From positions 1 through 64,000 of the forward strand of contig JAPJBO010000715.1 of NCBI GenBank assembly GCA_030068145.1: DNA of 64,000 nucleotides, written 5' to 3'. Source of the stretch: Diplonema papillatum (taxonomy: Eukaryota > Euglenozoa > Diplonemea > Diplonemida > Diplonemidae). The notes beneath the pieces were generated by a model. It saw only the letters and a list, made by a program, of their open reading frames with translations, had not been told where the DNA came from and made no database searches. Shown piece after piece: positions 1 through 52,045 of this stretch. Numbering within the stretch: the first letter of the stretch is position 1; each line of letters begins with the position of its first letter. Made by a program: the position numbers and the translations under genes.

Positions 1-209
<209 letters not shown>

Positions 210-249
210 GGGGAAAAAGCCACATAGCACAAACTCATACTTGACTAAG

Positions 250-1497
250 ATGAACGCGGACAACCTCCACGCGGTCCCCCTGGGTCCCGAAGCAGCTGCA
301 TCGGGAAGCAGAACGTCCGCGACAGTGCGTGTGGTGCACCTGCCGACGTTCAAGCAGTTCTCGCTGCAGTTGGACGGGCTGAAGGGCAAGGCAGGGGCGT
401 ACGAATCTGTCATCGAGCAGATCGGGTGGACGGGAGCGCGTGTCAGAATGCGGCGCGGCATGGCCATGATCGAGGCTCCGACACCACCACCGGCGCAGCG
501 AGTACGCGTCGGCGACGAGGAGGCAGACATCGTCGACCTCGAAGAGCTGGAGAAGCAGCAGCGCGAAGAGCAGAAGAAGGAGAGGGTGCGCAGCCTCGAG
601 CAGCAAATCGAGGGCCTCTCCGCGGCACACTCGCCTAAGCGCCTCCCGGACAACAACGCCCCGAGAGGGCCGACTTACTCAAAGGCGGAGTTCGTCGCAG
701 AGTTTGGGAGAAAAGAGGCCGAGAGGGAGTGGCGCATGGCTCTGAGGGCGCATACTGAGGGCCGAAAGAAGCAACTCGCGCGGCTACGGGCCTTGCTGGG
801 TGAGCTGCAGCCGAAGGCCGAAACAACGGGCGACGCCGACATGCAGGACAGAGAGGAAACCACCCGCGCCGGAGACGAGACCAGAAACGCTTGGCAAGCA
901 TGGGCTCAGCAGCAGCAGCAGCAGCGGGTGACGTGGGAAAAGGCGCGAGCTGAAGCCCGAGCCTCCTGGGAGGCGATGTACGAGAAGCGGCTCCAAAACT
1001 GGGCCGAGGCCCAGGTTTGTATTGCCACGCAGCGCGAGGAAGCAGCGCTCGTGCGCCAAATGGAGTGGATGGCCGAAGTGGAGAGGAAGCTCGCTGTCTT
1101 CGAAACAGAGATGTGTGCCCGGGTGGAGTCACTACTCCCAAGCGTAACCGCAGACGCCGGGCGGGCACCAACCCCTCCAGCAGCAGATGCGCGAGCACCA
1201 GCGCAGCCAAGCCCGAACAAGAAGGGAAAGAAAGCCGAGGCGAAGGCAAAGAAGGAAGCCGCCGAGAAGGAATTCGCAGAGCAGCTCAAACAGCTCAACC
1301 AAGCCACTAACAGAGCGGAGGCCGAGCCGAAATCAAGTGGTACCGAGCAGGAGTCGAGCGGTGTCGAGCCGAATGCACACGGAGCCGAAACGAAAGCAAC
1401 CGACGTCGAGCCGAAAGCAAAAGCAGCGAAAGGGGCCAAGCAGCAGACCCTCAAAGGGATGCTCAAGGGGAACCGGTACAACCCGCTGGAAAGCTAG
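250..1497 (+). CDS. LINE-A ORF1, coiled-coil gag-like protein
   Basis: About 415 residues from the ATG at 250 (the frame opens slightly upstream) to a TAG at 1495-1497. It has a short N-terminal region, a long charged helical stretch rich in E, K, R and Q (residues about 90-300, with a run of six Q), then a low-complexity K/A/E/P tail with repeated 'VEPKA'-like units. I see no CCHC knuckle or RRM. Its position at the 5' end of a LINE and its composition suggest the RNA-binding, RNP-forming ORF1 product. The frame continues directly into ORF2 after the single stop codon, which is unusual. Confidence 0.8.
   Translation: MNADNLHAVPLGPEAAASGSRTSATVRVVHLPTFKQFSLQLDGLKGKAGAYESVIEQIGWTGARVRMRRGMAMIEAPTPPPAQRVRVGDEEADIVDLEELEKQQREEQKKERVRSLEQQIEGLSAAHSPKRLPDNNAPRGPTYSKAEFVAEFGRKEAEREWRMALRAHTEGRKKQLARLRALLGELQPKAETTGDADMQDREETTRAGDETRNAWQAWAQQQQQQRVTWEKARAEARASWEAMYEKRLQNWAEAQVCIATQREEAALVRQMEWMAEVERKLAVFETEMCARVESLLPSVTADAGRAPTPPAADARAPAQPSPNKKGKKAEAKAKKEAAEKEFAEQLKQLNQATNRAEAEPKSSGTEQESSGVEPNAHGAETKATDVEPKAKAAKGAKQQTLKGMLKGNRYNPLES
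1495..1497 (+). promoter_or_regulatory. Single in-frame UAG between ORF1 and ORF2 (candidate readthrough site)
   Basis: ORF1 ends with TAG at 1495-1497. The next codon in the same frame (1498) starts an open stretch to 4653 that contains the OTU, endonuclease and RT domains. There is no ATG in that frame before or inside the OTU domain; the first methionine lies in the endonuclease domain. The base after the stop is G, and a perfect GGGGCGCCCC palindrome follows within 6 bases and could form a stem. Readthrough, or reinitiation at a non-AUG codon such as the GTG at 1525, would be needed. Confidence 0.6.
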
Positions 1498-4400
1498 GTC
1501 GCGGGGCGCCCCGGAGAAAGCTCGGTGGCTAGTAATCAATCAGCTAGCGATCAACGCACCAGGGCAACCCGGGGCGCCGAACGACCTACAAACAATTCAA
1601 ATGTGCGATGCTCTTGGACTGCGGAAGCGACCAACAACCCGACGCCAGCGGAAAGCGGCGACCGGTTGCTAGACAAGGCAGCAGCAGTTCTCGGAGCCAG
1701 ACGTGAAGTGGTAGGGAAGGACGGAAATTGCCAGTATCAGGCACTGATTCGCGGTGGCAGGCTGAACCTCACGGCTGCCGCCTTGCGACAGAAGGTCACC
1801 CGGCAACTCCGAACGAACCCACCAACGCCTTTTGTCCCTGAGACCCCGAAATCATTTGCAGACTACCTCTTCGAAGCTGCAAGCGACGGGGTGTATGGGG
1901 ACCACTATACTCTCCAAGCTGCCGCAGAAGTTTTAAAGGCGAGCGTGTGGGTTCTATCGACACGGAACTTGACGCAGCTTCGGTGCGAAGGAAGAGCTGC
2001 GAGGGCAACCCGAGTCGTCGTCCTGACGTATCGACCCGAGCATTACGACGCGCTCGCTCTGCCGCACAGGGTGCTGCAGAAGATTTCTGCGCTGGAAGTG
2101 GGGACGTCGACGATATCGCTGCGGCAGCTCGGAGCAGAGACTGTCGCGCCAGCCCCGCGGGGGGGAGTGGCAGGGCCCCGAGGAGAAGTGGTCCTGGCGA
2201 CAACAAATCTCGGGTCGTTGAACTCAAGGTGTCACAGTGTGGCGACACTGCCAGCGGACATCATTGCGTTACAGGAAACTCGAGCTGGGCCGGAAGTGAA
2301 ACGAACCAGCGAGTTCTACCTCGGGGCATATGGCGTGAGATGCCACTGGGGGGAGGATGTACCGGTGGTCGTAGGAGCGAGCGGAATTGGGCAGCGCGTG
2401 CCGGGAGGGGCGGCAGTGACCACGAAAAGCAACATGGTAGCGACGGTAGCCCGACCCTCAACTGAGCTGGAAAGAGAGCTCTTTCGCAGTACGCGAGTCG
2501 CGCACGCAGTAGTAGCGACGGGGAACGCGCGTGCGACTATACACGTGATATCAGTATATGCGCATGTCGGGAAAGATTCGGAAGCCGTGAGGGAGCGCGA
2601 AAAACTCCTGGCCGGTGTGTTCGAGATGGCGGCGGGGCTGGGGCAGGTACCCGTTGTCATAATGGGGGACTTCAACACCGAGACTAGAGATAGCCCAGCT
2701 CTCGAAGCGGCCTGCGGAAGCGGTGGATGGATTGATTCGGCGGCTGTCATGGCGAGGGCGCATTCACAAGCCGCCCCGGCTACCTGTTGGGCCGGGGAGG
2801 GTGGCTCGCGTATCGACATGTGCTTCCTGAACCGAACAGCGGCGCCGGCGCTAGTAGCAGTGGTCACCGCAAAGAAGGGCCAATATGACATCCCCACCCA
2901 TTGCCCGGTGTTTGTCACCCTAAGTCTGGAAGTGTTTACACAGTCAGACCCAACCGCTTGGATCCCGGCACCTTTTCCGAGGAAGCTGCCCCTGCTCTCG
3001 CCGGAGAAGAAGGAAGCAATACTCGAGGCGGCTCTACGACGGAAGGAGGAGAAGACTGGAGTGACAGGCGCATATCAAAACGCAACGGTAGTAGCTGAAA
3101 CCTACTTGCTCGAACTGCATGGCGATCCCAGACAGCCGGACGCATTGCGGGGTTGCAAAGGACGAACAGGTGGGTTTCAACAGAAGATGCAGCAGGTCTC
3201 AGCCAGGCAGGCATGTTCGACGAGAGGAGCGCTTGACTGGGCAGCAAAGCAACGCGACAAGGTCATCGGCCTGCTCCGGACCACCATCTCCGAGACGCGA
3301 CGGAGGCTTGAAAATAAATCGGTGGGCGGCCGTACTTTCGCAGAACAAAGAGCGAGAGATGCTTTACTGAGGACGGCGGGGAGGACGCAGCCACTAGGAG
3401 TCCGCCTAGGCCAGATAAGTGGAAGCCAACAAGAGCTCGAGCAGCTAATGGAAACCCTCATCGAACTAGAAGGAACCCAGCGAGATGCAATCAATTCCCT
3501 CAAGCAACAGCGGTGCCGCGCCTGGAAGGAACGAATGCAGAACGAGTGGAATGGACCTGGGAGAGGCGAGGTATACCGGTACCTGGCTGGGGGCCGGAGT
3601 AGACCACTCGCCATGCTCAGACGGAAAGACGGGACACTGACGGCTTGTTGCACCGAGATAGACAGGATGTTGAGAAGCGACGACGCGTGGGGAGGGATCT
3701 TTTGCAAATACGCTGGGACCCCCGAACCAAGATGGGATACCTTTAAAATCCACTACGCGCGCTTCTTCCCTGCACGGCAAGCGATGCCGCACGGGCCCAT
3801 CACGACAGCGGACCTGAAGGCGGCACTGGCAAAGATGAAGAAAACGTCGTCACCTGGGCTCCATGGGTGGCGCGTATACGAATTGCAGCAACTGCCGCCA
3901 CAGGTTCTAGAACTCATGGCGGACGCAATGAACAGCGTCGAACGTGAAGGGGAGTGGCCAGCCCCGCTGATGCACGCAATCATCCATCTGCTCCCCAAAC
4001 CAGAGAGCACTGGAGACCCGCTGTCCCAGCGCCCAATAACGATAACTCCAGTCTTGTACAGGATATGGGCCTCGATACGGGCGCGGGATGCATTGGAGTG
4101 GATGGACGCCATAGCGCCCAGTGGGCTACACGGTTGCCGCAAACAACACGGAACCGATGATCTCGTCTGGCACCTCGCCGCACTCATCGAGGAAGCCCAT
4201 ATAACGAAACAGCCGCTCTACGGTCTGGCGCTGGACTTCCAGAAGTGCTTCGACTCAGTTCCTGCGGAGATAGCGTTTAAGCTCGCCGAAGAATTGGGAT
4301 TCCATCCAACGGTCCTCAAAACTCTGCGGGCCGCATATGCCAACATGCAGCGCCACTTCCGTGTTGGGAACAGCATTGGAGAAGGTTTCGTACCCACAAA

Positions 4401-4653
4401 CGGGATCATGCAGGGGTGCCCAATCAGCGTGGTGCTGATAAACGTGTTGATCAGTGTGTGGATGAGACACATCGCTGGCATCGAAGCGGCGATTCCTCCT
4501 TCCTACGTCGACGACCTATATGCATTGCTGAAGAGCTGTGCGAGCTTAAAAGAGGCAGTTCGACGGTCGAGCGAGTTCGCAGGGCTGACGGGAATGCGAG
4601 TCTGTGCGCAAAAGAAGTCCTTTTGTTTTTCAAGGACGCCTTGGAGGACATAG
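1498..4653 (+). CDS. LINE-A ORF2, 5' part: OTU protease + endonuclease + reverse transcriptase
   Basis: About 1,050 residues. Near residue 70 is an OTU-like cysteine protease core: 'KDGNCQYQAL' supplies the catalytic Cys, 'YGDHYTLQAAAEVL' follows, and 'YRPEHYDAL' supplies the His. Next is an AP-endonuclease-like domain with 'ALQET', 'VVIMGDFNTE', 'SRIDMCFL' and 'THCPV'. The reverse transcriptase follows with 'LPKPE', 'LDFQKCFDSVP', 'GIMQGCPIS' and catalytic 'YVDDLYAL'. Reading ends prematurely at 4653 just after the 'KKS' motif, and the rest of the protein is in another frame. The first ATG lies far inside the ORF, so translation probably depends on ORF1. The protease role is unknown; family knowledge suggests deubiquitinase or polyprotein cleavage activity. 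Confidence 0.88.
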   Translation, partial: VAGRPGESSVASNQSASDQRTRATRGAERPTNNSNVRCSWTAEATNNPTPAESGDRLLDKAAAVLGARREVVGKDGNCQYQALIRGGRLNLTAAALRQKVTRQLRTNPPTPFVPETPKSFADYLFEAASDGVYGDHYTLQAAAEVLKASVWVLSTRNLTQLRCEGRAARATRVVVLTYRPEHYDALALPHRVLQKISALEVGTSTISLRQLGAETVAPAPRGGVAGPRGEVVLATTNLGSLNSRCHSVATLPADIIALQETRAGPEVKRTSEFYLGAYGVRCHWGEDVPVVVGASGIGQRVPGGAAVTTKSNMVATVARPSTELERELFRSTRVAHAVVATGNARATIHVISVYAHVGKDSEAVREREKLLAGVFEMAAGLGQVPVVIMGDFNTETRDSPALEAACGSGGWIDSAAVMARAHSQAAPATCWAGEGGSRIDMCFLNRTAAPALVAVVTAKKGQYDIPTHCPVFVTLSLEVFTQSDPTAWIPAPFPRKLPLLSPEKKEAILEAALRRKEEKTGVTGAYQNATVVAETYLLELHGDPRQPDALRGCKGRTGGFQQKMQQVSARQACSTRGALDWAAKQRDKVIGLLRTTISETRRRLENKSVGGRTFAEQRARDALLRTAGRTQPLGVRLGQISGSQQELEQLMETLIELEGTQRDAINSLKQQRCRAWKERMQNEWNGPGRGEVYRYLAGGRSRPLAMLRRKDGTLTACCTEIDRMLRSDDAWGGIFCKYAGTPEPRWDTFKIHYARFFPARQAMPHGPITTADLKAALAKMKKTSSPGLHGWRVYELQQLPPQVLELMADAMNSVEREGEWPAPLMHAIIHLLPKPESTGDPLSQRPITITPVLYRIWASIRARDALEWMDAIAPSGLHGCRKQHGTDDLVWHLAALIEEAHITKQPLYGLALDFQKCFDSVPAEIAFKLAEELGFHPTVLKTLRAAYANMQRHFRVGNSIGEGFVPTNGIMQGCPISVVLINVLISVWMRHIAGIEAAIPPSYVDDLYALLKSCASLKEAVRRSSEFAGLTGMRVCAQKKSFCFSRTPWRT

Positions 4654-6701
4654 GTTGGCGGTGGACGGGCCCGACGACAATCGCGTACGAAAACGAAGCC
4701 GGCGAGACGGTGACCCACGATGCAGCACAAATGGGCAACACGAAGCTTCTTCAGCACGACGTACGACATGCGACGCGCCTCCGGGAGATGAGGAAGCTGG
4801 CAGCAAGGAGACCGGCGGACTTTGACGGAGCGCAGCACGGCATCGACACGTGGGCTACGAGGCACCTGCTGGAAAAGCGGGAAACGCCGCTGACCGCTTA
4901 CCAAGCAGGAATGCTCCGGACGGTCATTGCGGGGGCCACACCGGCCACGGGGCGAACCGGGCTAGAGGTGACATGCAAGTACTGCGGCACGCAGGAAAGA
5001 GAGACTGTCGAACACCTTTTCTGGAGATGCATGGCGTGGACACAAATACGGTCGGAATATGCTGACCTGGAGGACATCCAAAGCAGTTGGCCGCCGTGTT
5101 TACGCCTATGTGGAGTCGTTCCTCTCTGCCCCCGAGCTCCACTCGAAAATCCGCTACCTGCTGACGAACACCAACGCCTCCGCATTATAGAGAGACTGCA
5201 GACGTTCTTTGTTGCGGTACTGGTAGCCAGACAGGAAACAGACAATATGCTGGACCGAGCCCCGCGACACCACCGAACGTTGGAGTATCCGCGGGGGTGG
5301 GTCCCAACAGCCCCCCGGGTTTTGAGCGTGACGGACGTCCCACACGCCGCAACCACCTCAAAGTGGAAATATGGCCCAGGTCTCTGGACAGCCTTCACGG
5401 GCTGGCTAAAAACACTCAGGTGGGCACCCCCAGGGCAGGAGACTGGAATCAGCTATATGGAGCTAGCTGTAGCCTTCGAGCTGGAAGCGGGGATCAAGCT
5501 GCCCCCGGTGAAGAATCGGTTCTACGCCCCACCGCCAGAAATTCCAAGAGGGAAGCAAACTGCAGCACGGGACACGCTTCCGGACGAGGAAACCGCGGAC
5601 GAGATTGCAGTATACTTCGATGGCGGAGCGCGCGGGAACGGCACCGTTTTTGCAGTAGCGGGAGCAGGGGCAGTACTGTACCGAAATGGCAGAAAAGAAG
5701 CTGAGATGGTGCTGCCCCTGCCGAACGTGCGGACGAATAACGTAGCGGAATATGAAGGACTTCTGGCGAGCCTGGAACTCCTCCAGCAGGCACGAACCGA
5801 ACAAGGAGCGCGTTGCGTAGTCCGAGGCGACTCGGCCCTCGCGGTGGGCCAGGTGACAGGGCAGACGGGCTGCTCGGAGCAGCTAAGGCCAATGCTCACC
5901 CGGGCAAAAGCGCTCCTATGTGAGATCCAACGACGGATGCAGGTAGTAGTGCAACATGTTCGGCGGGAGAGCAACAGCGATGCTGACGCGTTGAGCAACG
6001 CGGCGATGGACGTGGTGCAGCGGAACCGCCCACCCCGGCGGGTACAGATGCAGATGCTGCAACAGGTACAGACATCACTTCTGGGAAAGGCACTGAGCCT
6101 CATAGAGCTGGGGAGCGCCTACACAAAAGTGGCGAAGCAGCCGTGGCACTTTGGGTTCGACGCGCCAACAACGGTCCTAACATCGCTTGGAGGAACGGTT
6201 GTGCGGGGAATATCGTGCAGGGCGAAGATCTCGCAAGCTGCCGAGGATGTCATCCTGAGGATCCGTGAGCACGTGCAGAGCCGCCCTCCCTCAACGGAGG
6301 AGACGCCGCTTTTCCCGCAGTACCTAGCATGGGCCGCGACGTACCAACCAGAGGAGGTGTACCCCATGGGATGGTTGCGAGCATGGGCCGGCCGGGCGAG
6401 ACCGCAAAAGCCTGAGGATCCCCGCGGAGAGCGAAAACGAAGGGAGGCACCGCGGAACCCGGTTAGACCGCTAAACGCGGAAGGCCTGCACGAACGGCCG
6501 ATAGGGCGAGCAACGAGGAAGACGAGCGAGCGACGCAGCGAACGGAGCCCGCGACCAAAAACCGAACACTGCCAACTCCATGAACAGGAGCAGCGCCGAG
6601 AGAGTCGAAACGAAGCGTCGCGCGGCCTCAGGCACCACCCGGGCTCGCAGGAGACACCGGGCCCCCACCAGCGGCCGGGCGGGGCGTCGGCCGTAACCTA
6701 G
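4620..6701 (+). CDS. LINE-A ORF2, 3' part: RT end, zinc knuckle, RNase H
   Basis: This continues ORF2 in the -1 frame; the frame itself is open from 4416. It begins with the RT thumb region, then a zinc knuckle of the LINE type (CKYC, then H and C: CX2CX9HX4C), a 'WL..L.W' / 'ELAVAFELEAGIKLPP' module, and an RNase HI domain with 'YFDGGARGNG', 'NNVAEYEGL', 'RGDSALAVGQ' and 'NSDADALSNAAMD', so all the acidic catalytic positions are present. The last 100 residues are R/P/E-rich and probably disordered. RNase H degrades the RNA strand during target-primed reverse transcription. I see no second, restriction-like endonuclease. Confidence 0.87.
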   Translation, partial: LLFFKDALEDIGWRWTGPTTIAYENEAGETVTHDAAQMGNTKLLQHDVRHATRLREMRKLAARRPADFDGAQHGIDTWATRHLLEKRETPLTAYQAGMLRTVIAGATPATGRTGLEVTCKYCGTQERETVEHLFWRCMAWTQIRSEYADLEDIQSSWPPCLRLCGVVPLCPRAPLENPLPADEHQRLRIIERLQTFFVAVLVARQETDNMLDRAPRHHRTLEYPRGWVPTAPRVLSVTDVPHAATTSKWKYGPGLWTAFTGWLKTLRWAPPGQETGISYMELAVAFELEAGIKLPPVKNRFYAPPPEIPRGKQTAARDTLPDEETADEIAVYFDGGARGNGTVFAVAGAGAVLYRNGRKEAEMVLPLPNVRTNNVAEYEGLLASLELLQQARTEQGARCVVRGDSALAVGQVTGQTGCSEQLRPMLTRAKALLCEIQRRMQVVVQHVRRESNSDADALSNAAMDVVQRNRPPRRVQMQMLQQVQTSLLGKALSLIELGSAYTKVAKQPWHFGFDAPTTVLTSLGGTVVRGISCRAKISQAAEDVILRIREHVQSRPPSTEETPLFPQYLAWAATYQPEEVYPMGWLRAWAGRARPQKPEDPRGERKRREAPRNPVRPLNAEGLHERPIGRATRKTSERRSERSPRPKTEHCQLHEQEQRRESRNEASRGLRHHPGSQETPGPHQRPGGASAVT

Positions 6702-6761
6702 AAGGGTGCCATGCGTGGACACACTCTCGCTAAGGGGGGCGCCACGTTAAAACGAGTCCGC

Positions 6762-6930
<169 letters not shown>

Positions 6931-17055: not shown

Positions 17056-17215
17056 CAACAACCAGGAACACACTGGTAGGTGAGCAGCGACACCTCCCGA
17101 AAGTGAGCCAAGGGCGAAGGACGTATCTGCGGCTGCTGCGGCAGTTGCCCCACACGCAGAACGCGGGGAAGGGGAACGTGTTTTCCCAACTATATTGAAG
17201 CCCCTTCCCAAGTCC
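17056..17215. repeat. Repeat segment, inverted relative to 29252-29404
   Basis: Contains GGCAACAACCAGGAACACAC, GGTGAGCAGCGACACCTCCC and CAACTATATTGAAGCCCC. The reverse complement of this stretch is found at 29252-29404, directly after the partner of 16790-17010, so part of a longer repeat has been inverted here. Confidence 0.75.
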
Positions 17216-17224
17216 AATATGGTC

Positions 17225-17479
17225 GCGCGACCCTTCGTGGGATCTGATCGGTGATCACTCGGGACACCTCAAGCCAGCTCTTGGTTCTCCCGCGTCGCCA
17301 GTCCTGCTTACCAGAAGTGGCCCACGTAGAACCAGGATTCTACGTCAGGGGTCAATGAAGCAACCCCCGAGCTCACGCCCATCTTTTGAAAGTCTGAGAC
17401 TAGGTCGTCTAGGAAGCGATTTCCCCAATGCCTCCAATCATTCGCTTTACCTGGCGGAACTCCTGTTTTGGTTCTAGCC

Positions 17480-17510
<31 letters not shown>

Positions 17511-22436: not shown

Positions 22437-22544
22437 TGCGACAACCAATTTCTGCTTCCCTGGAGACAGTATTTGTTACAGCTAAAAAGAACGTTGGCAG
22501 CGGTTTAACCAGAACACACGTAGGTTAAATCGCACAAACAAAAA
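22437..22544 (+). repeat. 108-bp terminal direct repeat, left
   Basis: Identical base for base to 26050-26157. Its 3' half has the TGGCAGCGGTTTAACC ... CGCACAAACAAAAA layout shared with the dispersed motif copies. Confidence 0.97.
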
Positions 22545-22559
22545 ATAATTGCTCGTGCT

Positions 22560-25500
22560 ATGGCTTGTGAGTTCAAGGCCGTGGATTGGTCCCCGATCCA
22601 GGTTGTCCGCGCCCCCGACGAGTGGGAGGCCGCGGAGGAAGACGTCGACTGCTGTGTCGATTGTGGAAAGATCCACACCGCGGGGGCGTTCTGTGCCCGA
22701 TGCGGGAAACGGGGTCTGGCCACCTGCCTCAAAGCGGCGCTCCCAAGGGAAGTCGCGCCCCTGTTCGTAGACCACTTAGCGGCAGACGGGTGGGTTTGCC
22801 CCGCCTGCATAGTGGCGGTGCACCAGGCTGGCACCACTCTTCAAGAAGAGTTCCGTGTCCGGATCGCTCGTGCTCAAGAGCATGACGTGATGGAGCACCT
22901 GGAGGATGGGCGGGGTCTGGTACGCCAACGGCATCAGGGCGATAAGAGTGACGAAGTGGGTCCGGCGCTCGTGGTCGACCACGCTCCCCGCGTCGTGGGG
23001 GTTCTCGGGAACCAAATGGTAGGCGTATCTGCCTTTTATTTCTCTGCTCGGCGGAGCGTCGTGGTCCGCCTGGAGGCCCTGCGGCTGAAGTGCTTGCATG
23101 CGAACGGGATCGAATTCCAGATTGCGTGGGAGACACCGGTTCGGGTCTTTGGACTACACCGACTTCACGAAGTCGGCTCTGGTCCAGGCGCAAAAGTCCA
23201 TGGCCGACCTCTCAAAAAAGGCGGACCAGAGGGACGAAAGGAGGGAGCACCCCTCGAAGAGGCCGCGGAAGTGAATTGCGGCGAGCGCTTCTGTTCCCAC
23301 CGGCCTGCCTTCGGAGGGTTTGTGGAAGGAGTTGGCAGCGAGGTCACGACCTCGGAAAAAGAACTCCGCGTGCCCCGATCAAGATCGGTTCCGGACGGAC
23401 CAGGAGTCACTACTCCTCGCGTTGCAGAAGTGCTACAAGAGCACCCCTGCTATGCTGTCGGTGGTGAGCCGTGCTCAGAGGTACGCAGTGGAGGCCCGCC
23501 GGTTTTACCCCGCATTGTCCGACGAGGAGGCTTTCCTCATGTGGGTGAACCGGAAGATGATGGCCGGCGAGCTCACTGCCGAATCTGCCCTCCAGTACGC
23601 AACGTACTTCAGGATGTCCCGGGTGGACTGGATGGGTGCTTATCGCCGTTCGGTCAAGCTGACCATGGAACAGTTCGAGGGCCGACGCACCCGCGACGCC
23701 GGACGGACTCCGACCAAGGCGGCGATACAGTTGGTAGTCTCACGAGGCTCGTCCTTGCACGCCATGGCCCTCCGGTTCCAGTGGTCGACGGCTTGCAGGT
23801 TCGTGGATCTGCAGCGGATTCGGCTGGACCACATGTGGTCGGTGGACACAGGACAGGTCATGATCCTGTTCGTCGGCGGGAAGACCGACCCTACCTCAAG
23901 AGGCCAGGGTCTCTTGCTACCGCGAAGCGGTCCTTTTCTGACGCCTTTCTGGGAATGGATCACGATCCATCGGCCGGCCCTGGGCACCAAGGCGCCCCTG
24001 TTCCCCAACCTGTCACGACAGGCCTACAACAGTTTCCTACAAGAGGAGCTGGGGGTGTCGTCGCACCGCATCAGACATGCCGCGCTGAGCTGGGTGGCCC
24101 TCCTGGAGGGCGAGCAGACGGCGATGAACGTGGGGCGACACCTGAATCCCAGGACGACGCGCTTATACACTCCGCATCACCTTTGGCAGCCGGTCCTGCT
24201 CTCAGCCCCGGGCACAGCTGCCTTGCAAAGGACTGGGTGAACAGCGGCCCCGCCAAACAATCGCTGTGGCCGCGTCATCTCGACAAGATCCTGCAGGGGT
24301 ATGACTACGCCAACGGCTGGCTAGACGCGAGTAGCGGGAAACGGGTCACGAAGGCCTCGTATGACGGAGAGATCGCTGCGACCGCCCCGCCGTTCAATCA
24401 CGAAGCGCTTCTGCAGGATTTCCCCAGCCTCCGCAGCAACATGAGGTGGGTCCTCGACGCCGCGTTTATCGCCACCATGCTGAAGCCGGGCTCGTTCGTA
24501 TCCGGCCCGGGGCCCCGCAACTCCCGAATGATGCCGCACGTCGATCGCTTGCTTGAGTTGGACGTCGCTGCACCGGTCCCTAAAGCGGCGTCTTCCCGCT
24601 GGTTCCACGGCGCGTTTACGGTGGACAAACGGGCCCCCGGTCAGCTGCGCTTCATCCTCAGCTGCGAATCCATCAACCGGGCTACGGCACACGTGCCTCT
24701 GCCCCCCTGCGACCTGCCCAGCTACGCCACCATCGTGACTACGGTGCTGTCCCGCAAGTGGGTGGCTGAGTTCGACTTCCGCTCCTTTTTCTTCCAGTTT
24801 GCGCTGCCTCCAGAGGTCAGGAAGTATTTCTGTTTCCGTGTTGAGGGCAGGCTGATGTGGATGACGCGCCTGCCGATGGGCTACCGTGCCGCGCCTCAGG
24901 CGGCCCAGGCGGTCTCGCTGGAGCTTGCGGTTGCCGCCGCCCAGGGTGTTGACGTTGAGGTCCTCGCGTGGATCGACAACGTGATCTTCGTGGCGGACAC
25001 TGAGGCCGAAGTTATGGAAGCCTCGGCTCGCTTCAAGGCTTTGACTTCGAAGTACGGCTTGACCATCGGGAGCTGGTCCAAGCCTTCTACCCGCGCGGTG
25101 CTGCTGGGACTGGATCTCGACCTCGCAGCGAAGAGATGGCGCGTGGACCCAGCCTGGACGATGAAGGCCGGACCGGTAATGGGCCAGATCCTGGAGTTCA
25201 GTGCGGCTCCCGTCCGCGTGTGGTGGAAACTGACCGGGTCTCTGCTCTGGCGTCGCCACGTGATGGGGTACCCTCTCCACGAGGTGCTTCCCCTCTTGCA
25301 TTGGATGTCCGCCCTGGCCTCCGGCCGCGCGTCTACCGACAGCGCGTTCTGGGACTCCGTCGCGCCTTGCCCAGCTGCGGTCAAGAGCTGCCTCGCTGCC
25401 CAGTGCTCCGACATGCGGGGTAACGCCTGGCGGCAATGGTGCAGACCGGTTTACACTCGTTCGATTGATGTCGTCTCCGACGCCAGCATGTCGGCATGGG

Positions 25501-25832
25501 CATTCGTGGCAGACGGGTTCCATGTCTATGGGGGCTTTCCTTCGGAGTTGCTCCACGCGGACATCTTCATGAAGGAGCTATACGCCGTCGTTCGGGCCGT
25601 AGAGCACGCGGTCCACGCCCAGTCGAGCATGGACATCAACCTGCTTTGTGACAACAAGGCGGTGATAGGCTGCGTACGCCGCGGCTACACGCTTCGTCAG
25701 GATGCGATGCAGCTGCTAACTCTGATCAACAAGAGCTTGGCCTCATCCAGGAGCCGGCTGAACATCAGCTACGTTCCGTCGCTCCAGAACATCGCGGATC
25801 AGTACACAAGACTGAATCGTCCGCAATGTTAG
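22560..25832 (+). CDS. gag-like / RT / RNase H frame of the DIRS-like element
   Basis: A 1,090-codon uninterrupted frame from ATG at 22560. The N-terminus holds a zinc-binding cluster (CCVDC, CARC, then CPAC, residues about 30-85), plausibly gag-like. Residues about 255-560 overlap the recombinase gene in another frame and are compositionally odd (P/G/R-rich). From residue about 575 the reverse transcriptase is clear: 'AEFDFRSFFFQFALP' (motif A), 'RLPMGYRAAPQAAQ' and 'AWIDNVIFVAD' in place of the YxDD box. RNase H follows with 'VVSDASMSAWAF', 'ELYAVVRAVEH', 'LLCDNKAVIGC' and 'QNIADQYTRL'. Whether one polyprotein or two proteins are made is unknown. Confidence 0.85.
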   Translation: MACEFKAVDWSPIQVVRAPDEWEAAEEDVDCCVDCGKIHTAGAFCARCGKRGLATCLKAALPREVAPLFVDHLAADGWVCPACIVAVHQAGTTLQEEFRVRIARAQEHDVMEHLEDGRGLVRQRHQGDKSDEVGPALVVDHAPRVVGVLGNQMVGVSAFYFSARRSVVVRLEALRLKCLHANGIEFQIAWETPVRVFGLHRLHEVGSGPGAKVHGRPLKKGGPEGRKEGAPLEEAAEVNCGERFCSHRPAFGGFVEGVGSEVTTSEKELRVPRSRSVPDGPGVTTPRVAEVLQEHPCYAVGGEPCSEVRSGGPPVLPRIVRRGGFPHVGEPEDDGRRAHCRICPPVRNVLQDVPGGLDGCLSPFGQADHGTVRGPTHPRRRTDSDQGGDTVGSLTRLVLARHGPPVPVVDGLQVRGSAADSAGPHVVGGHRTGHDPVRRREDRPYLKRPGSLATAKRSFSDAFLGMDHDPSAGPGHQGAPVPQPVTTGLQQFPTRGAGGVVAPHQTCRAELGGPPGGRADGDERGATPESQDDALIHSASPLAAGPALSPGHSCLAKDWVNSGPAKQSLWPRHLDKILQGYDYANGWLDASSGKRVTKASYDGEIAATAPPFNHEALLQDFPSLRSNMRWVLDAAFIATMLKPGSFVSGPGPRNSRMMPHVDRLLELDVAAPVPKAASSRWFHGAFTVDKRAPGQLRFILSCESINRATAHVPLPPCDLPSYATIVTTVLSRKWVAEFDFRSFFFQFALPPEVRKYFCFRVEGRLMWMTRLPMGYRAAPQAAQAVSLELAVAAAQGVDVEVLAWIDNVIFVADTEAEVMEASARFKALTSKYGLTIGSWSKPSTRAVLLGLDLDLAAKRWRVDPAWTMKAGPVMGQILEFSAAPVRVWWKLTGSLLWRRHVMGYPLHEVLPLLHWMSALASGRASTDSAFWDSVAPCPAAVKSCLAAQCSDMRGNAWRQWCRPVYTRSIDVVSDASMSAWAFVADGFHVYGGFPSELLHADIFMKELYAVVRAVEHAVHAQSSMDINLLCDNKAVIGCVRRGYTLRQDAMQLLTLINKSLASSRSRLNISYVPSLQNIADQYTRLNRPQC
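23275..24240 (+). CDS. Tyrosine recombinase of the DIRS-like element
   Basis: It is open from 23275 in a frame different from the surrounding ORF and fully overlapped by it. Likely starts are a non-AUG codon near 23320 or an ATG near 23452. Catalytic motifs of the tyrosine recombinase fold are all visible: Arg in 'STACRFVDLQRI', Lys in 'VGGKTDPTSRG', 'SHRIRHAALSW' (HxxR box), His in 'GRHLNPRTTRLY' and the nucleophile Tyr at its end. The stop at 24238 lies just before the RT region. The enzyme would join the circular DNA copy to the genome, with the 108-bp repeat as a plausible recombination site. Confidence 0.86.
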   Translation: MAASASVPTGLPSEGLWKELAARSRPRKKNSACPDQDRFRTDQESLLLALQKCYKSTPAMLSVVSRAQRYAVEARRFYPALSDEEAFLMWVNRKMMAGELTAESALQYATYFRMSRVDWMGAYRRSVKLTMEQFEGRRTRDAGRTPTKAAIQLVVSRGSSLHAMALRFQWSTACRFVDLQRIRLDHMWSVDTGQVMILFVGGKTDPTSRGQGLLLPRSGPFLTPFWEWITIHRPALGTKAPLFPNLSRQAYNSFLQEELGVSSHRIRHAALSWVALLEGEQTAMNVGRHLNPRTTRLYTPHHLWQPVLLSAPGTAALQRTG

Positions 25833-37290: not shown

Positions 37291-37593
37291 GTTCTTGCTA
37301 GAACGTCCGGTTTCCAGTTGGTAAAAACCCTTGGTGATGGAGCTCTGACTTTGATTCGGTAGCATTTTCGTGAGGGCGAGGCTAGAAAGACGCAGGCGCG
37401 GCGTGTTATCAGGTTTCGCAACCTGGAAAAGGAAGAAGGTAAACAGGGGTAAGAACAAGCGGGAACCCGATCAACCGGGGGGGATACATAAAAGCTCGAA
37501 TTAATTGTGAAGAATACAAGGGCTCGAGACACCGACGACGGGTCATTTTGCCACTGTTCAAACGGCGATGCAAACGACGGTCAGGCCAGGGAT

Positions 37594-38200
37594 ACGGGAC
37601 GTACGCAACACCAGGCCAGGTTGTTCAAAAATAAAAATAAATAAAGACATAGAGAACACACAGCTGCAAAGACCACCCAGCAGCCGAATCAACAGGTTGT
37701 ACCAGCCCACACCCAAGGGAGAACACCAAGCCGCCTTGACCGGCAACTGTGATGCAGAGCACGGATTCTTGAAACTCGAAACCGTCTAAAAATCCCGGTT
37801 TCGCAAGAGAACTGTACTGTGTAACTCTAAAGACGACGAAAAAGGGCAAAATACGGGCAGGGGGCGTGTGTTTTACGGGAGAGGACCTGGGAGCCGAAAC
37901 TGCAGCGGAGCAGCCACACTCGCGGGGCGGGGGAAGGCATGTCGCAGGAGGAGCTTGCGGCGCCGGTGGAAGACAACGGCAAGGCGGCCGCCGGGAAGGA
38001 GGATGCGGCCGCCGTGAATGGGCAGAAGGCAAAGGTGCGCAAACCGGTGGTCGTCACCGACAAGCACGGCAACGTCGTGGACCTCGGCACCAGGAGCCCG
38101 GCATCCACAGTCAGCACACCGCCGGTGGTCCGTCGAACACGACGTTTTCCCACTCTCCTGCATACGGGACGTACGCAGCTACAGGTGCGTTGTTCCAAAA
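37594..38200 (+). pseudogene. Damaged copies of zinc-domain gene exon 1 with upstream region
   Basis: A start codon at 37939 opens 'MSQEELAAPVEDNGKAAAGK', close to the intact exon 1 at 42854, and keeps 'RKPVVVTDKHGNVVDLGTRS', but a frame change after 'STPPVV' ends the similarity in frame. The upstream TACGGGACGTACGC and GACATAGA(G/A)AACACACAGCTG sequences show that the leader region was copied as well. It is the longest of the upstream copies and the probable ancestor of the 466-bp units. Confidence 0.8.
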
Positions 38201-41200
38201 TAGAAAATGAGTAAAGACATAGAAAAACACACAGCTGCAAAGACCACCCAGCAGCCGAAGCAACAGGTTGTACCAGCTAGCCCACACCCAAGGAAAGCAC
38301 ACCAAGCTGCCTTGACCGGCAACTGTAGACACAGAACACGGGTTCTCGAAACTCGAAACCGTCTAAAAATCCCGGATTCGCAAGCGAACTGTCTTGCGTA
38401 GCTCTAAAAAAGGGCAACACACGGGGGTGGGAGGTGGCAGGGGGCGTGTGTTTTACGGGAGACGACCTGGGAGCCGAAACTCCACACTCGCGGGGCGGGG
38501 AAGGCATGTCGCAGGAGGAGCTTGCGGCGACGGTGGACCTCGGCACCAGGAGCCCGGCATCCACAGTCAGCCCACCGCCGGTGGTGCGGCAGAACCCGTC
38601 GAACACGACGTTTTCCCACTCTCCTGAAGACGGGACGTACGCAGCACCAGGTGCGTTGTTCCAAAATAGAAAATGAGTAAAGACATAGAAAAACACACAG
38701 CTGCAAAGACCACCCAGCAGCCGAATCAACAGGTTTTACCAGCTAGCCCACACCCAAGGAAAGCACACCAAGCTGCCTTGACCGGCAACTGTAGACACAG
38801 AACACGGGTTCTCGAAACTCGAAACCGTCTAAAAATCCCGGATTCGCAAGCGAACTGTCTTGCGTAGCTCTAAAAAAGGGCAACATACGGGGGTGGGAGG
38901 TGGCAGGGGGCGTGTGTTTTACGGGAGACGACCTGGGAGCCGAAACTCCACACTCGCGGGGCGGGGAAGGCATGTCGCAGGAGGAGCTTGCGGCGACGGT
39001 GGACCTCGGCACCAGGAGCCCGGCATCCACAGTCAGCCCACCGCCGGTGGTGCGGCAGAACCCGTCGAACACGACGTTTTCCCACTCTCCTGAAGACGGG
39101 ACGTACGCAGCACCAGGTGCGTTGTTCCAAAATAGAAAATGAGTAAAGACATAGAAAAACACACAGCTGCAAAGACCACCCAGCAGCCGAATCAACAGGT
39201 TTTACCAGCTAGCCCACACCCAAGGAAAGCACACCAAGCTGCCTTGACCGGCAACTGTAGACACAGAACACGGGTTCTCGAAACTCGAAACCGTCTAAAA
39301 ATCCCGGATTCGCAAGCGAACTGTCTTGCGTAGCTCTAAAAAAGGGCAACATACGGGGGTGGGAGGTGGCAGGGGGCGTGTGTTTTACGGGAGACGACCT
39401 GGGAGCCGAAACTCCACACTCGCGGGGCGGGGAAGGCATGTCGCAGGAGGAGCTTGCGGCGACGGTGGACCTCGGCACCAGGAGCCCGGCATCCACAGTC
39501 AGCCCACCGCCGGTGGTGCGGCAGAACCCGTCGAACACGACGTTTTCCCACTCTCCTGAAGACGGGACGTACGCAGCACCAGGTGCGTTGTTCCAAAATA
39601 GAAAATGAGTAAAGACATAGAAAAACACACAGCTGCAAAGACCACCCAGCAGCCGAATCAACAGGTTTTACCAGCTAGCCCACACCCAAGGAAAGCACAC
39701 CAAGCTGCCTTGACCGGCAACTGTAGACACAGAACACGGGTTCTCGAAACTCGAAACCGTCTAAAAATCCCGGATTCGCAAGCGAACTGTCTTGCGTAGC
39801 TCTAAAAAAGGGCAACATACGGGGGTGGGAGGTGGCAGGGGGCGTGTGTTTTACGGGAGACGACCTGGGAGCCGAAACTCCACACTCGCGGGGCGGGGAA
39901 GGCATGTCGCAGGAGGAGCTTGCGGCGACGGTGGACCTCGGCACCAGGAGCCCGGCATCCACAGTCAGCCCACCGCCGGTGGTGCGGCAGAACCCGTCGA
40001 ACACGACGTTTTCCCACTCTCCTGAAGACGGGACGTACGCAGCACCAGGTGCGTTGTTCCAAAATAGAAAATGAGTAAAGACATAGAAAAACACACAGCT
40101 GCAAAGACCACCCAGCAGCCGAATCAACAGGTTTTACCAGCTAGCCCACACCCAAGGAAAGCACACCAAGCTGCCTTGACCGGCAACTGTAGACACAGAA
40201 CACGGGTTCTTGAAACTCGAAACCGTCTAAAAATCCCGGATTCGCAAGCGAACTGTCTTGCGTAGCTCTAAAAAAGGGCAACATACGGGGGTGGGAGGTG
40301 GCAGGGGGCGTGTGTTTTACGGGAGACGACCTGGGAGCCGAAACTCCACACTCGCGGGGCGGGGAAGGCATGTCGCAGGAGGAGCTTGCGGCGACGGTGG
40401 ACCTCGGCACCAGGAGCCCGGCATCCACAGTCAGCCCACCGCCGGTGGTGCGGCAGAACCCGTCGAACACGACGTTTTCCCACTCTCCTGAAGACGGGAC
40501 GTACGCAGCACCAGGTGCGTTGTTCCAAAATAGAAAATGAGTAAAGACATAGAAAAACACACAGCTGCAAAGACCACCCAGCAGCCGAATCAACAGGTTT
40601 TACCAGCTAGCCCACACCCAAGGAAAGCACACCAAGCTGCCTTGACCGGCAACTGTAGACACAGAACACGGGTTCTCGAAACTCGAAACCGTCTAAAAAT
40701 CCCGGATTCGCAAGCGAACTGTCTTGCGTAGCTCTAAAAAAGGGCAACATACGGGGGTGGGAGGTGGCAGGGGGCGTGTGTTTTACGGGAGACGACCTGG
40801 GAGCCGAAACTCCACACTCGCGGGGCGGGGAAGGCATGTCGCAGGAGGAGCTTGCGGCGACGGTGGACCTCGGCACCAGGAGCCCGGCATCCACAGTCAG
40901 CCCACCGCCGGTGGTGCGGCAGAACCCGTCGAACACGACGTTTTCCCACTCTCCTGAAGACGGGACGTACGCAGCACCAGGTGCGTTGTTCCAAAATAGA
41001 AAATGAGTAAAGACATAGAAAAACACACAGCTGCAAAGACCACCCAGCAGCCGAATCAACAGGTTTTACCAGCTAGCCCACACCCAAGGAAAGCACACCA
41101 AGCTGCCTTGACCGGCAACTGTAGACACAGAACACGGGTTCTCGAAACTCGAAACCGTCTAAAAATCCCGGATTCGCAAGCGAACTGTCTTGCGTAGCTC

Positions 41201-42250
41201 TAAAAAAGGGCAACATACGGGGGTGGGAGGTGGCAGGGGGCGTGTGTTTTACGGGAGACGACCTGGGAGCCGAAACTCCACACTCGCGGGGCGGGGAAGG
41301 CATGTCGCAGGAGGAGCTTGCGGCGACGGTGGACCTCGGCACCAGGAGCCCGGCATCCACAGTCAGCCCACCGCCGGTGGTGCGGCAGAACCCGTCGAAC
41401 ACGACGTTTTCCCACTCTCCTGAAGACGGGACGTACGCAGCACCAGGTGCGTTGTTCCAAAATAGAAAATGAGTAAAGACATAGAAAAACACACAGCTGC
41501 AAAGACCACCCAGCAGCCGAATCAACAGGTTTTACCAGCTAGCCCACACCCAAGGAAAGCACACCAAGCTGCCTTGACCGGCAACTGTAGACACAGAACA
41601 CGGGTTCTCGAAACTCGAAACCGTCTAAAAATCCCGGATTCGCAAGCGAACTGTCTTGCGTAGCTCTAAAAAAGGGCAACATACGGGGGTGGGAGGTGGC
41701 AGGGGGCGTGTGTTTTACGGGAGACGACCTGGGAGCCGAAACTCCACACTCGCGGGGCGGGGAAGGCATGTCGCAGGAGGAGCTTGCGGCGACGGTGGAC
41801 CTCGGCACCAGGAGCCCGGCATCCACAGTCAGCCCACCGCCGGTGGTGCGGCAGAACCCGTCGAACACGACGTTTTCCCACTCTCCTGAAGACGGGACGT
41901 ACGCAGCACCAGGTGCGTTGTTCCAAAATAGAAAATGAGTAAAGACATAGAAAAACACACAGCTGCAAAGACCACCCAGCAGCCGAATCAACAGGTTTTA
42001 CCAGCTAGCCCACACCCAAGGAAAGCACACCAAGCTGCCTTGACCGGCAACTGTAGACACAGAACACGGGTTCTCGAAACTCGAAACCGTCTAAAAATCC
42101 CGGATTCGCAAGCGAACTGTCTTGCGTAGCTCTAAAAAAGGGCAACATACGGGGGTGGGAGGTGGCAGGGGGCGTGTGTTTTACGGGAGACGACTTGGGA
42201 GCCGAAACTGCAGCGGAGCAGACACACTCGCGGGGCGGGGGAAGGCATGT
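38173..42250 (+). repeat. 466-bp satellite: promoter/leader plus shortened exon 1, 8 full units
   Basis: Eight near-identical 466-bp units plus partial ends. Each contains leader sequence and an ATG (38506, then every 466 bases to 41768) that opens a 56-codon frame 'MSQEELAATVDLGTRSPAST' to '...GALFQNRK'. Compared with exon 1, each lacks about 130 bases between two GTGG words (microhomology deletion) and 12-13 bases upstream of the ATG. Very few differences separate the units, so amplification is recent. Whether any unit is transcribed is unknown. Confidence 0.92.
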
Positions 42251-42258
42251 CGCAGGAG

Positions 42259-42449
42259 GATCCCGCGTCGCCAGTCCTGCTTACCAGAAGTGGCCCACGT
42301 AGAACCAGGATTCTACGTCAGGGTTCAATGAAGTAACCCCGAGCTCACGCCCATTTAAAGTTTGAGAATAGGTCGAGGAAGCGAATTCCCCAATGCCTCC
42401 AATCATTCGCTTTACCTGGCGGAACTCTTTTGGTTCTAGCTATCCTGAG
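42259..42449 (-). rRNA. 28S rRNA fragment (about 190 bp) inserted in an exon 1 copy
   Basis: It covers the same LSU region as 17289-17490 but is closer to the usual sequence (minus strand reads CGACCTATTCTCAAACTTTA and TGACGTAGAATCC). It interrupts the exon 1 copy between GCAGGAGGA and GAGCTTGCGG. It is not a functional rRNA gene. The short overlap at the junctions suggests capture during break repair. Confidence 0.88.
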
Positions 42450-42600
42450 GGAGCTTGCGGCGACGGTGGACCTCGGCACCAGGAGCCCGGCATCCACAGT
42501 CAGTACACCGCCGGTGGTGCCGCTAAACCCGGCGAACACGACGTATTCCCACTCTCCTGAATACGGGACGTACGCAGCTACAGGTGCGTTGTTACAAAAT
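42450..42600 (+). pseudogene. Exon 1 copy remnant after the rRNA insert
   Basis: It continues 'ELAATVDLGTRSPASTVSTP' to '...TYAATGALLQ' and then the GTAAAAGACATAGAAAAACA leader seen in the satellite. It has the same internal deletion as the satellite units, but 'PPVVPLNPANTTYSHSPEYG' is closer to the intact exon. Confidence 0.8.
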
Positions 42601-42853
42601 AAAAATTGGTAAAAGACATAGAAAAACACACAGCTGCAAAGATCACCCAGCAGCCGAATCAACAGGTTGCACCAGCTAGCCCGCACCCAAGGAAAGCACA
42701 CCAACCCGCCTTGACCCGCAACCGTAGAATCCTTAAACCTCGAAACCGTCTAGAACAGGGCAAAATACGGGGGTGGGTGGTGGCAGGGGGCGTGTGTTTT
42801 TTTACGAGCCGAAACTGCAGCGGAGCAGCCACACTCGCGGGGCGGGGGAAGGC

Positions 42854-43472
42854 ATGTCGCAGGAGGAGCTTGCGGCGACGGTGGTAGACAACGGCAAGGC
42901 GGCCGCCGGGAAGGAGGATGCGGCCGCCGTGAATGGGCAGAAGGCGAAGGCGCCGGCCGACGAGGCCCAACCCGCGCGCAAGCCGGTGGTCGTCACCGAC
43001 AAGCACGGCAACGTCGTGGACCTCGGCACCAGGAGCCCGGCATCCACAGCCAGCACACCGCCGGTGGTGCCGCAAACCCCGGCGAACACGACGTATTCCC
43101 ACTCTCCCGGGTACGGGACGTACGCTACGCCAGGCGCGGGCCGCGGGTACGCCACATCACAGTACCCGGCCGACCATCCGTACGCACAGTATGCCATGGC
43201 GCACGGCAAAAAAGGCGGTGCGCCGGCGTACGGAGGCACCCGGGGGTACCCCCCGGTGCCGCTTGACGGGAAAGGCGGGCACAAAGGCTACATGGGAACA
43301 CCGCCGGGACCGGCGCCTTACGCGTATCCGGCTTCGGCGAGCCCGGCGCCTTCGAACGGGCTCAACGCGTCTACGCCGCCGTTCCACCCGGCCGCACACA
43401 CGCAGCAGGCGCCGCTCACGCAGCACACGCCGCCGCGGTGTCCGTCCGGGCACGTGCTCACGCAGACCCATG
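42854..43472 (+). CDS. Zinc-domain host gene, exon 1 (intact copy)
   Basis: ATG at 42854 ('MSQEELAATVVDNGKAAAG'), preceded by the leader sequence also present in the satellite units. About 206 codons: an acidic/Ala-rich start, 'RKPVVVTDKHGNVVDLGTRS', then a long Tyr/Gly/Pro-rich low-complexity region ('YGTYATPGAGRGYATSQYPA', 'GGHKGYMGTPPGPAPYAYPA'), ending 'PRCPSGHVLTQTH'. The final C..GH begins a Cys/His zinc domain completed by exon 2. The donor is CATG|GTATTG at 43473, phase 1, matching exon 2. The protein family is unknown to me. Confidence 0.78.
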
Positions 43473-51940: not shown

Positions 51941-51954
51941 GGTCGAACCCAAAA

Positions 51955-52045
51955 TACTAGTGTCAATTTCGATCACACTCTACAACGCTCGACTACACTC
52001 TACTGCACTCTACTACACTCGATTACACTACTACACGCGGCTCAG
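51955..52045. repeat. Degenerate TCGATTACAC minisatellite, 5' flank of LINE-C
   Basis: ACACTCTACAACGCTCGACT, ACACTCTACTGCACTCTACT and ACACTCGATTACACTAC variants directly precede the truncated LINE-C 5' end. Confidence 0.8.

Follow-up and report, generated by a model that had tools for sequence, protein, structure and literature searches.

The 64,000-nucleotide stretch of Diplonema papillatum DNA considered here (assembly GCA_030068145.1, contig JAPJBO010000715.1, positions 1 to 64,000; hereafter "the window") carries near its start a long interspersed nuclear element (LINE) whose two open reading frames (ORFs), ORF1 and ORF2, share one frame and are separated by a single UAG codon. We consider it reasonably probable that this UAG is subject to programmed readthrough, yielding a fusion of ORF1 with the OTU-like protease, endonuclease, reverse transcriptase (RT) and RNase H encoded by ORF2, and we favor this explanation over an AUG-independent reinitiation. 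The stop is conserved, the frame is shared, no AUG occurs from the stop to the end of the OTU domain, a conserved hairpin with constrained synonymous sites is predicted beyond the stop, and the linker that leads from the stop to the OTU domain evolves as coding sequence. A preliminary description of this DNA had already raised readthrough; the conserved UAG, the shared frame and the lack of an early AUG support that interpretation, which we infer to be the best reading of them.

In the mechanism that we propose, two products would arise from one frame. Most ribosomes would halt at the UAG at 1495 and release the ORF1 protein. A minority, aided by the UAG-G context and by a stable hairpin whose main stem begins 8 nt downstream, would read through the stop and produce an ORF1-OTU-endonuclease-RT-RNase H fusion akin to the gammaretroviral Gag-Pol. 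It is the occurrence and efficiency of readthrough, its stimulation by the hairpin and the function of the fusion, with or without later cleavage, that we infer.

The UAG junction and the RNA beyond it

The preliminary description placed ORF1 and ORF2 in one frame with a single UAG between them, and the window copy bears this out: after the TAG at 1495-1497, the frame of ORF1 is open again from 1498 to 4653. The endpoint at 4653 is correct for this copy but reflects damage to it. The frame stops there because 565 nt are missing at 4625 relative to an intact copy; in intact copies, ORF2 is open for 1922-1925 codons. A candidate -1 frameshift near 4630 was rejected, as the frame break at that place is this deletion.

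Copies of the element were sought in the 271-Mb assembly (2910 contigs), and only the best candidates were scored, so that the counts are lower bounds. ORF2 matched at least 46 scored copies (47 rows), most of which belong to one of two subfamilies, A (97-100% identical to the window copy) and B (82-88%). Among the matches listed, full ORF2 frames are found in 12 A copies (1920-1922 codons) and 15 B copies (1925 codons), that is, in 27 of the 46 scored. Junction stretches from 59 loci (L009-L067) were examined. Three of these (L024, L050 and L066) have no recognizable junction and were excluded, and as each of two pairs (L053/L065 and L052/L067) represents a single place, the 56 readable loci occupy 54 distinct places in the two subfamilies. 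All 56 have UAG at the junction, followed by GTCGCGGGGCGCCCCGGA, and none has a sense codon or extra stops there. When the ORF2 frame was traced upstream in 45 loci, this UAG was met first, with no intervening AUG, in 41. The four exceptions either have no junction (L024 and L050) or carry frame-breaking indels (L022 and L053).

These copies refute the notion that the UAG is a decay mutation in a once-fused ORF1-ORF2 gene. The window copy is indeed damaged elsewhere, by its 565-nt deletion, but the same UAG is present in every readable junction of A and B, including those of copies with intact frames. It is therefore neither a decay mutation nor an error, and we give this explanation practically no weight. 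Two intact A copies differ at 0 of 1245 nt in ORF1 and at 2 of 5766 nt in ORF2; the family must therefore have been copied recently. One locus (L009, on contig C2897) shares with the window copy a frame of 1051 codons, and it may represent an allele of that copy or a duplicate contig. No relatives outside the genome were confirmed in scans of viral contigs, genome contigs and plasmid proteins; the families sampled are A, B and a cousin, family C.

Selection on the junction was assessed by comparing one intact copy of A with one of B (L068 and L069). The synonymous divergence (dS) is 0.64-0.84 in the other tabulated segments, except over the 46 codons that end the alignable part of ORF1, where it is 2.0, near saturation; the ratios of nonsynonymous to synonymous divergence (omega) in these segments are 0.04-0.18. 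The OTU domain has an omega of 0.05 and is therefore translated. The changes in the linker fall preferentially at third codon positions (Table 1), and this holds as well for its remainder at 1591-1677 (10 of 15 changes, P 0.0085; omega 0.15); the P values for the linker are one-sided binomials. Because the linker evolves as an in-frame coding sequence, protein must be made in this frame from a point upstream of the OTU domain. The hairpin codons have changed synonymously at 4 of about 24 sites, versus 48% elsewhere (P 0.0013), a paucity that argues for an extra, RNA-level constraint on the hairpin.

The region 1498-1600 is predicted to fold with an energy of -45.8 kcal/mol (z -5.2), and none of 200 shuffled sequences is equally stable. 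By both z-score and energy, the window 1488-1587 containing the hairpin ranks first of the 323 windows of the element, and none of 3000 synonymous recodings of the same peptide reaches the observed stability. Compared with the 631 ORF-terminal stops in the window (the ends of ORFs of at least 60 codons), this one ranks fifth for a stem starting 4-9 nt past the stop and seventh for the plain energy of 100 nt. Refolding of the 11 hairpin haplotypes gives energies of -46.7 to -53.1 kcal/mol and recovers one main stem in all of them; in these predictions, the stem is paired in 98.3% of cells and starts at +8 in every haplotype. A palindrome noted earlier after the stop, GGGGCGCCCC, is present at 1503-1512, but it is mostly one arm of the stem 1505-1514/1569-1578 and not a separate feature.

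In the B subfamily, a histidine-coding (CAT)n insertion lies in the loop of the hairpin. Its expansion in B loci (e.g., L029, L030 and L060) would place up to nine consecutive histidines in the linker, judging by the copies whose sequences were conceptually translated. The length of the loop differs among B copies, and the main stem is retained.

Type III readthrough signals are described as a UAG with a 3'-adjacent G or a purine-rich octanucleotide and a 3' RNA structure, the latter typically about 8 nt past the stop (PMC3542737). Subfamilies A and B fit this description, given that UAG-G occurs in all haplotypes and that the main stem is predicted to start about 8 nt past the stop. The octanucleotide after the stop, GUCGCGGG, is not entirely purine.

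Alternatives to readthrough

The most serious competitor, although in our estimation an unlikely one, is termination-coupled reinitiation without an AUG, in which ribosomes held by the hairpin would restart at or beside the UAG on a non-AUG codon, in the manner of SART1 or L1. Secondary structure past the stop-start site is required in SART1, and the initiation of L1 ORF2 is unconventional (PMC5972666, PMC2881922). In the present element, no AUG overlaps or adjoins the ORF1 stop, as SART1-type coupling would call for. The first in-frame ATG past the stop in the window copy is at 2434, within the endonuclease match; those before it (1601, 1608, 1895, 2330, 2340 and 2357) are all out of frame. 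In five copies of A and B, the first in-frame AUG is at codon 313 (A) or 237 (B) after the stop, past the OTU domain in both, and the earlier claim that no in-frame ATG lies before or within that domain therefore stands. Subfamilies A and B have no option of reinitiating at an AUG to make the OTU domain.

Near-cognate codons fare little better. None of the A codons GTG 1525, GTG 1603, TTG 1666 and GTG 1708 is retained in B (one copy of each subfamily compared). Upstream of the OTU catalytic cysteine, only AGG 1561, ACG 1642, AAG 1675 and AAG 1717 are kept in both; no CUG, GUG or UUG in that region is common to A and B, and A has no CTG there. Ordinary near-cognate initiation was rejected for this reason, the better candidates of A being absent from B. 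The ATG at 1608, which is out of frame and is matched by one in B, could catch a scanning subunit. Two further considerations speak against reinitiation: the linker evolves as protein, and the frame is kept in A, B and family C, though reinitiation imposes no such need.

Family C provides both some encouragement for reinitiation and a second case of the one-frame layout. An RT at 52020-52589 of the window, 41% identical to that of the main element, belongs to this family, in which 34 of 82 rows among the matches listed have an ORF2 frame of 1845 codons and ORF2 carries its own OTU domain (L082 and L083). The four copies read agree in their junction: a UGA with CUG behind it closes ORF1, ORF2 continues in the same frame, and the sixth codon past the stop, beyond an interval of 15 nt, is an in-frame AUG. 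No strong hairpin was found at this junction in the two copies folded (-23 to -25 kcal/mol per 100 nt). Family C could therefore use either a leaky UGA-C or reinitiation at its own AUG. Thus, the one-frame layout is common to two LINE families, A/B and C, but the signal differs. The window copy of family C (51816-55082; family loci L082-L085) is 5'-truncated and adjoins a CTCTACT/CTCGATTACA-like tandem repeat.

ORF2 might instead have its own start, through a spliced or internally promoted mRNA or through internal initiation, with B using an AUG before its endonuclease. Just before its endonuclease, at the position of A 2185, B does have such a codon, in frame and with a good context (GGG AUG G), and it was found in 24 of the 24 B loci checked (L025-L048). 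The preliminary description's statement that ORF2 lacks a usable AUG is thus correct from the stop to the end of the OTU domain in A and B, but not beyond it in B. The gag-pol junction of the Candida element Tca2 offers a precedent of another kind, as it shows minor promoter activity (PMC2194720). On the other side, A has GAA in place of this AUG, and a product begun there in B would omit the strongly constrained OTU domain and linker; lying behind the OTU domain, the AUG cannot explain either of them. An upstream AUG spliced onto ORF2, which had been named as a possible source of its start, finds no GTRAG donor in 1201-1497 and, at the threshold used, no pyrimidine-rich acceptor from the stop to the catalytic cysteine. 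Cis-splicing at consensus sites was rejected on these grounds, and we regard a separate start for ORF2 as improbable.

Reassignment of UAG to an amino acid in the host, also raised earlier, would account for a UAG within an otherwise continuous coding frame. ORF2 itself, however, ends in UAG in all three A and B copies that cover its end, and in A copies a ribosome reading past it would meet no further stop before reaching the (AC)n array. UAG also ends two of the five other window ORFs checked, once as UAGUAG, and no in-frame UAG lies inside the conserved domains of the element. Judged from ORF2 and the window ORFs alone, UAG appears to act as a functional stop in this host; reassignment was rejected as a very improbable explanation. 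No tRNA was found in the window, and three spliced-leader motifs had no match.

Returning to programmed readthrough, we note several observations that weigh against it. The comparison is effectively one of two lineages, A and B, with many near-identical copies within each. The indels of L022 and L053 shift ORF2 off the frame of the UAG, yet ORF2 stays long in both (1852 and 1878 codons). Low synonymous change per site (pS) is not specific to the hairpin, as it also falls to 0.05-0.08 in 22-codon windows near 3712 and 4057 and where ORF1 begins. Further, the 30-nt run identical in A and B at the stop is exceeded by another run, the longest being 65 nt. Folding the hairpin with more flank (1440-1640) weakens the signal to a z-score of -2.9, a stability that 2 of 200 shuffles match. 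Nor is the hairpin unique in the window: when energies are corrected for composition, 29 of the 5112 windows on the two strands of the 64 kb fall below it. No covariation was found in the main stem among the 11 haplotypes, because 10 of its 11 pairs never vary; in the upper stems, most one-sided changes preserve pairing, though no better than in shuffles. The outer helix, in which the stop codon would be paired, holds together in A and is disrupted in B. A stop locked in a conserved helix was thus rejected, and this helix is not counted as part of the mechanism. No pseudoknot partner of at least 6 bp was found for loop segments 1534-1542 or 1549-1556 in 1300-1494, 1589-1900 or 6500-6762; a loop pseudoknot, such as the compact one of the murine leukemia virus (MLV) subtype, was therefore rejected. 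The conserved hairpin sequence could serve a different RNA role. Subfamily B could make an endonuclease-RT protein without the OTU domain by another route, from its AUG before the endonuclease. Family C, with its UGA-CUG, nearby AUG and lack of a strong hairpin, demonstrates that an in-frame layout alone is no proof of readthrough. Finally, when tested in S. cerevisiae, the similarly laid-out junction of Tca2 showed no readthrough activity (PMC2194720).

The element and its surroundings

The LINE of the window is a full-length non-long-terminal-repeat (non-LTR) retrotransposon; its family was copied recently and resides in (AC)n arrays, and this copy has been damaged by an internal deletion. 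It lies between two such arrays (Table 1). Its class is evident from a LINE-type RT with an APE-type endonuclease upstream; solved chains named LINE-1 ORF2 protein are among the matches of the RT, from E 2.6e-13. A self-comparison of the window (low-complexity filter on, matches >60 bp) revealed no repeat pair starting within 208-6762 that could represent LTRs. The ORF1 protein has no Pfam match. The OTU region, as an isolated piece, matches the Pfam families OTU and C65, both at E 2.4e-4 and slightly under the gathering score. Its DGNC and HYD motifs, which we take to be those of an OTU protease, align with a PDB chain named OTU1 over 1699-2055 (E 0.083, alone not significant), and the region is 33% identical to the OTU region of family C (E 1e-12).

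Table 1. Features of the LINE and of the junction between its reading frames, in window coordinates
Feature	Position	Strand	Basis or remark
(AC)n array, 5' side, into which the LINE is inserted	1..207	+	Same flank in 5/5 longer copies inspected
ORF1 (415 aa in intact A copies; gag-like position; terminates in UAG)	250..1497	+	Start ATG 250; A vs B dN/dS 0.18
UAG between ORF1 and ORF2, then G (UAG-GUC)	1495..1497	+	56/56 readable loci, subfamilies A and B
Outer helix pairing the stop codon itself	1495-1501/1582-1588 (1495..1588)	+	61% of cells paired
Spacer between stop and main stem, 7 nt (stem from the 8th nt)	1498..1504	+	Predicted fold
In-frame linker, stop to OTU	1498..1677	+	14/22 A vs B changes at third positions, P 0.0035; omega 0.20
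Post-stop hairpin	1505..1578	+	Predicted main stem 1505-1514/1569-1578 plus 1516/1568
Upper stems of the hairpin	1520-1527/1557-1565 and 1528-1533/1543-1548	+	Partly re-paired in B; loop length variable in B
OTU-like cysteine protease domain (DGNC ... HYD), first domain past the stop	1699..2055	+	Pfam, PDB chain, comparison with family C
APE-type endonuclease domain	2239..2865	+	Exo_endo_phos, E 1.8e-11
Reverse transcriptase domain	3997..4629	+	RVT_1, E 1.4e-18
Breakpoint of the 565-nt deletion in the window copy	4625..4626	+	blastn vs intact copy; ORF2 frame broken
RNase H domain, frame shifted by the deletion	5658..6005	+	RVT_3, E 2.6e-10
Terminal UAG of ORF2	6699..6701	+	Likewise in A and B copies covering the end of ORF2
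(AC)n array, 3' side	6763..6928	+	Same in 3/3 longer copies covering the element end

Within the element, stretches of low pS occupy 250-320 (the first codons of ORF1), about 3712-3780 and 4057-4130, and it is possible that they are further RNA elements. In the B copy L069 (contig C5), the 5' (AC)n tract is preceded by what appears to be the 3' tail of another copy, which suggests serial insertion into the same array.

Elsewhere in the window, positions 22524-25832 hold a retroelement RT frame (RVT_1) that overlaps an upstream ORF at 23275-24240. This ORF has no Pfam match, and its text resembles, we presume, that of a tyrosine recombinase; the retroelement is possibly DIRS- or Ngaro-like with an unusual order. 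A tandem array of a 466-bp unit (8.9 copies, 99% matches) lies at 38077-42209 and is related to 37592-38189 and 42561-43138. On the minus strand, 17160-17496 is an isolated fragment of eukaryotic large-subunit ribosomal RNA. Because part of it (17288-17490) recurs at 42261-42452 with 91% identity, the fragment may be a dispersed repeat.

Comparison with known systems

How LINEs translate ORF2 is an open question, and L1 and SART1 both use unconventional initiation. If programmed readthrough is indeed the means used here, the element would represent retrovirus-like gag-pol expression among elements without LTRs. Readthrough could then set the ratio of ORF1 to ORF2 products, as it does for Gag and Gag-Pol, and, with its compact, conserved signal and its numerous near-identical copies, such a LINE would make ORF2 translation simple to assay. 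A bolder proposition, and as a whole a rather unlikely one, is that a LINE lineage independently reached the retroviral plan of gag-UAG-protease-pol. It would make ORF1 protein in excess together with an ORF1-OTU-endonuclease-RT-RNase H polyprotein, produced by readthrough, that the OTU domain directly behind the stop processes or stabilizes, and related families of the host would have kept the single in-frame stop but swapped the recoding signal (UAG-G and a hairpin in A and B, UGA-C in family C). Our literature search, which covered open-licence PMC papers, mainly by their titles and the starts of their abstracts, found no LINE with such a readthrough signal or expression plan.

In MLV, as here, a G follows the UAG and a protease, in MLV an aspartic one, comes directly after the stop. 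The present element resembles MLV gag-pol in having one frame, a single UAG and an RNA structure past an 8-nt spacer (PMC3542737, PMC4178896); readthrough in MLV involves 5-10% of ribosomes (PMC4178896). It differs from MLV in being a LINE with an OTU-like protease, and in having a long hairpin for which no pseudoknot partner was found, whereas MLV requires a compact pseudoknot. A stem-loop at a fixed, short distance past the stop is also described for alphaviruses, rice stripe necrosis benyvirus (UAG-GGG) and Drosophila dfr, which are of types II and III. In dfr, the stem-loop near the UAG promotes readthrough, and its distance and stability matter (PMC13170385).

Among retroelements of fungi, Tca2 has gag and pol split by one stop with a predicted 3' structure, a pseudoknot (PMC2194720), as in the arrangement described here, but it is an LTR element and its stop is UGA. 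Zorro3, an L1-type LINE of Candida that resides in poly(A), shares with our element a simple-repeat target and two ORFs; unlike it, Zorro3 has its ORFs split by multiple stops, and the first ATG of its ORF2 matters for retrotransposition (PMC7175516, PMC1965478). Further parallels are SART1 and L1, two-ORF LINEs in which translation of ORF2 is thought to depend on that of ORF1 (PMC5972666, PMC2881922). SART1 also has, and requires, an RNA structure downstream of the stop (PMC5972666). It restarts at an overlapping UAAUG, and in L1 a 63-nt spacer separates the two ORFs, whereas the element described here keeps ORF1 and ORF2 in the same frame and has no AUG before the end of its OTU domain.

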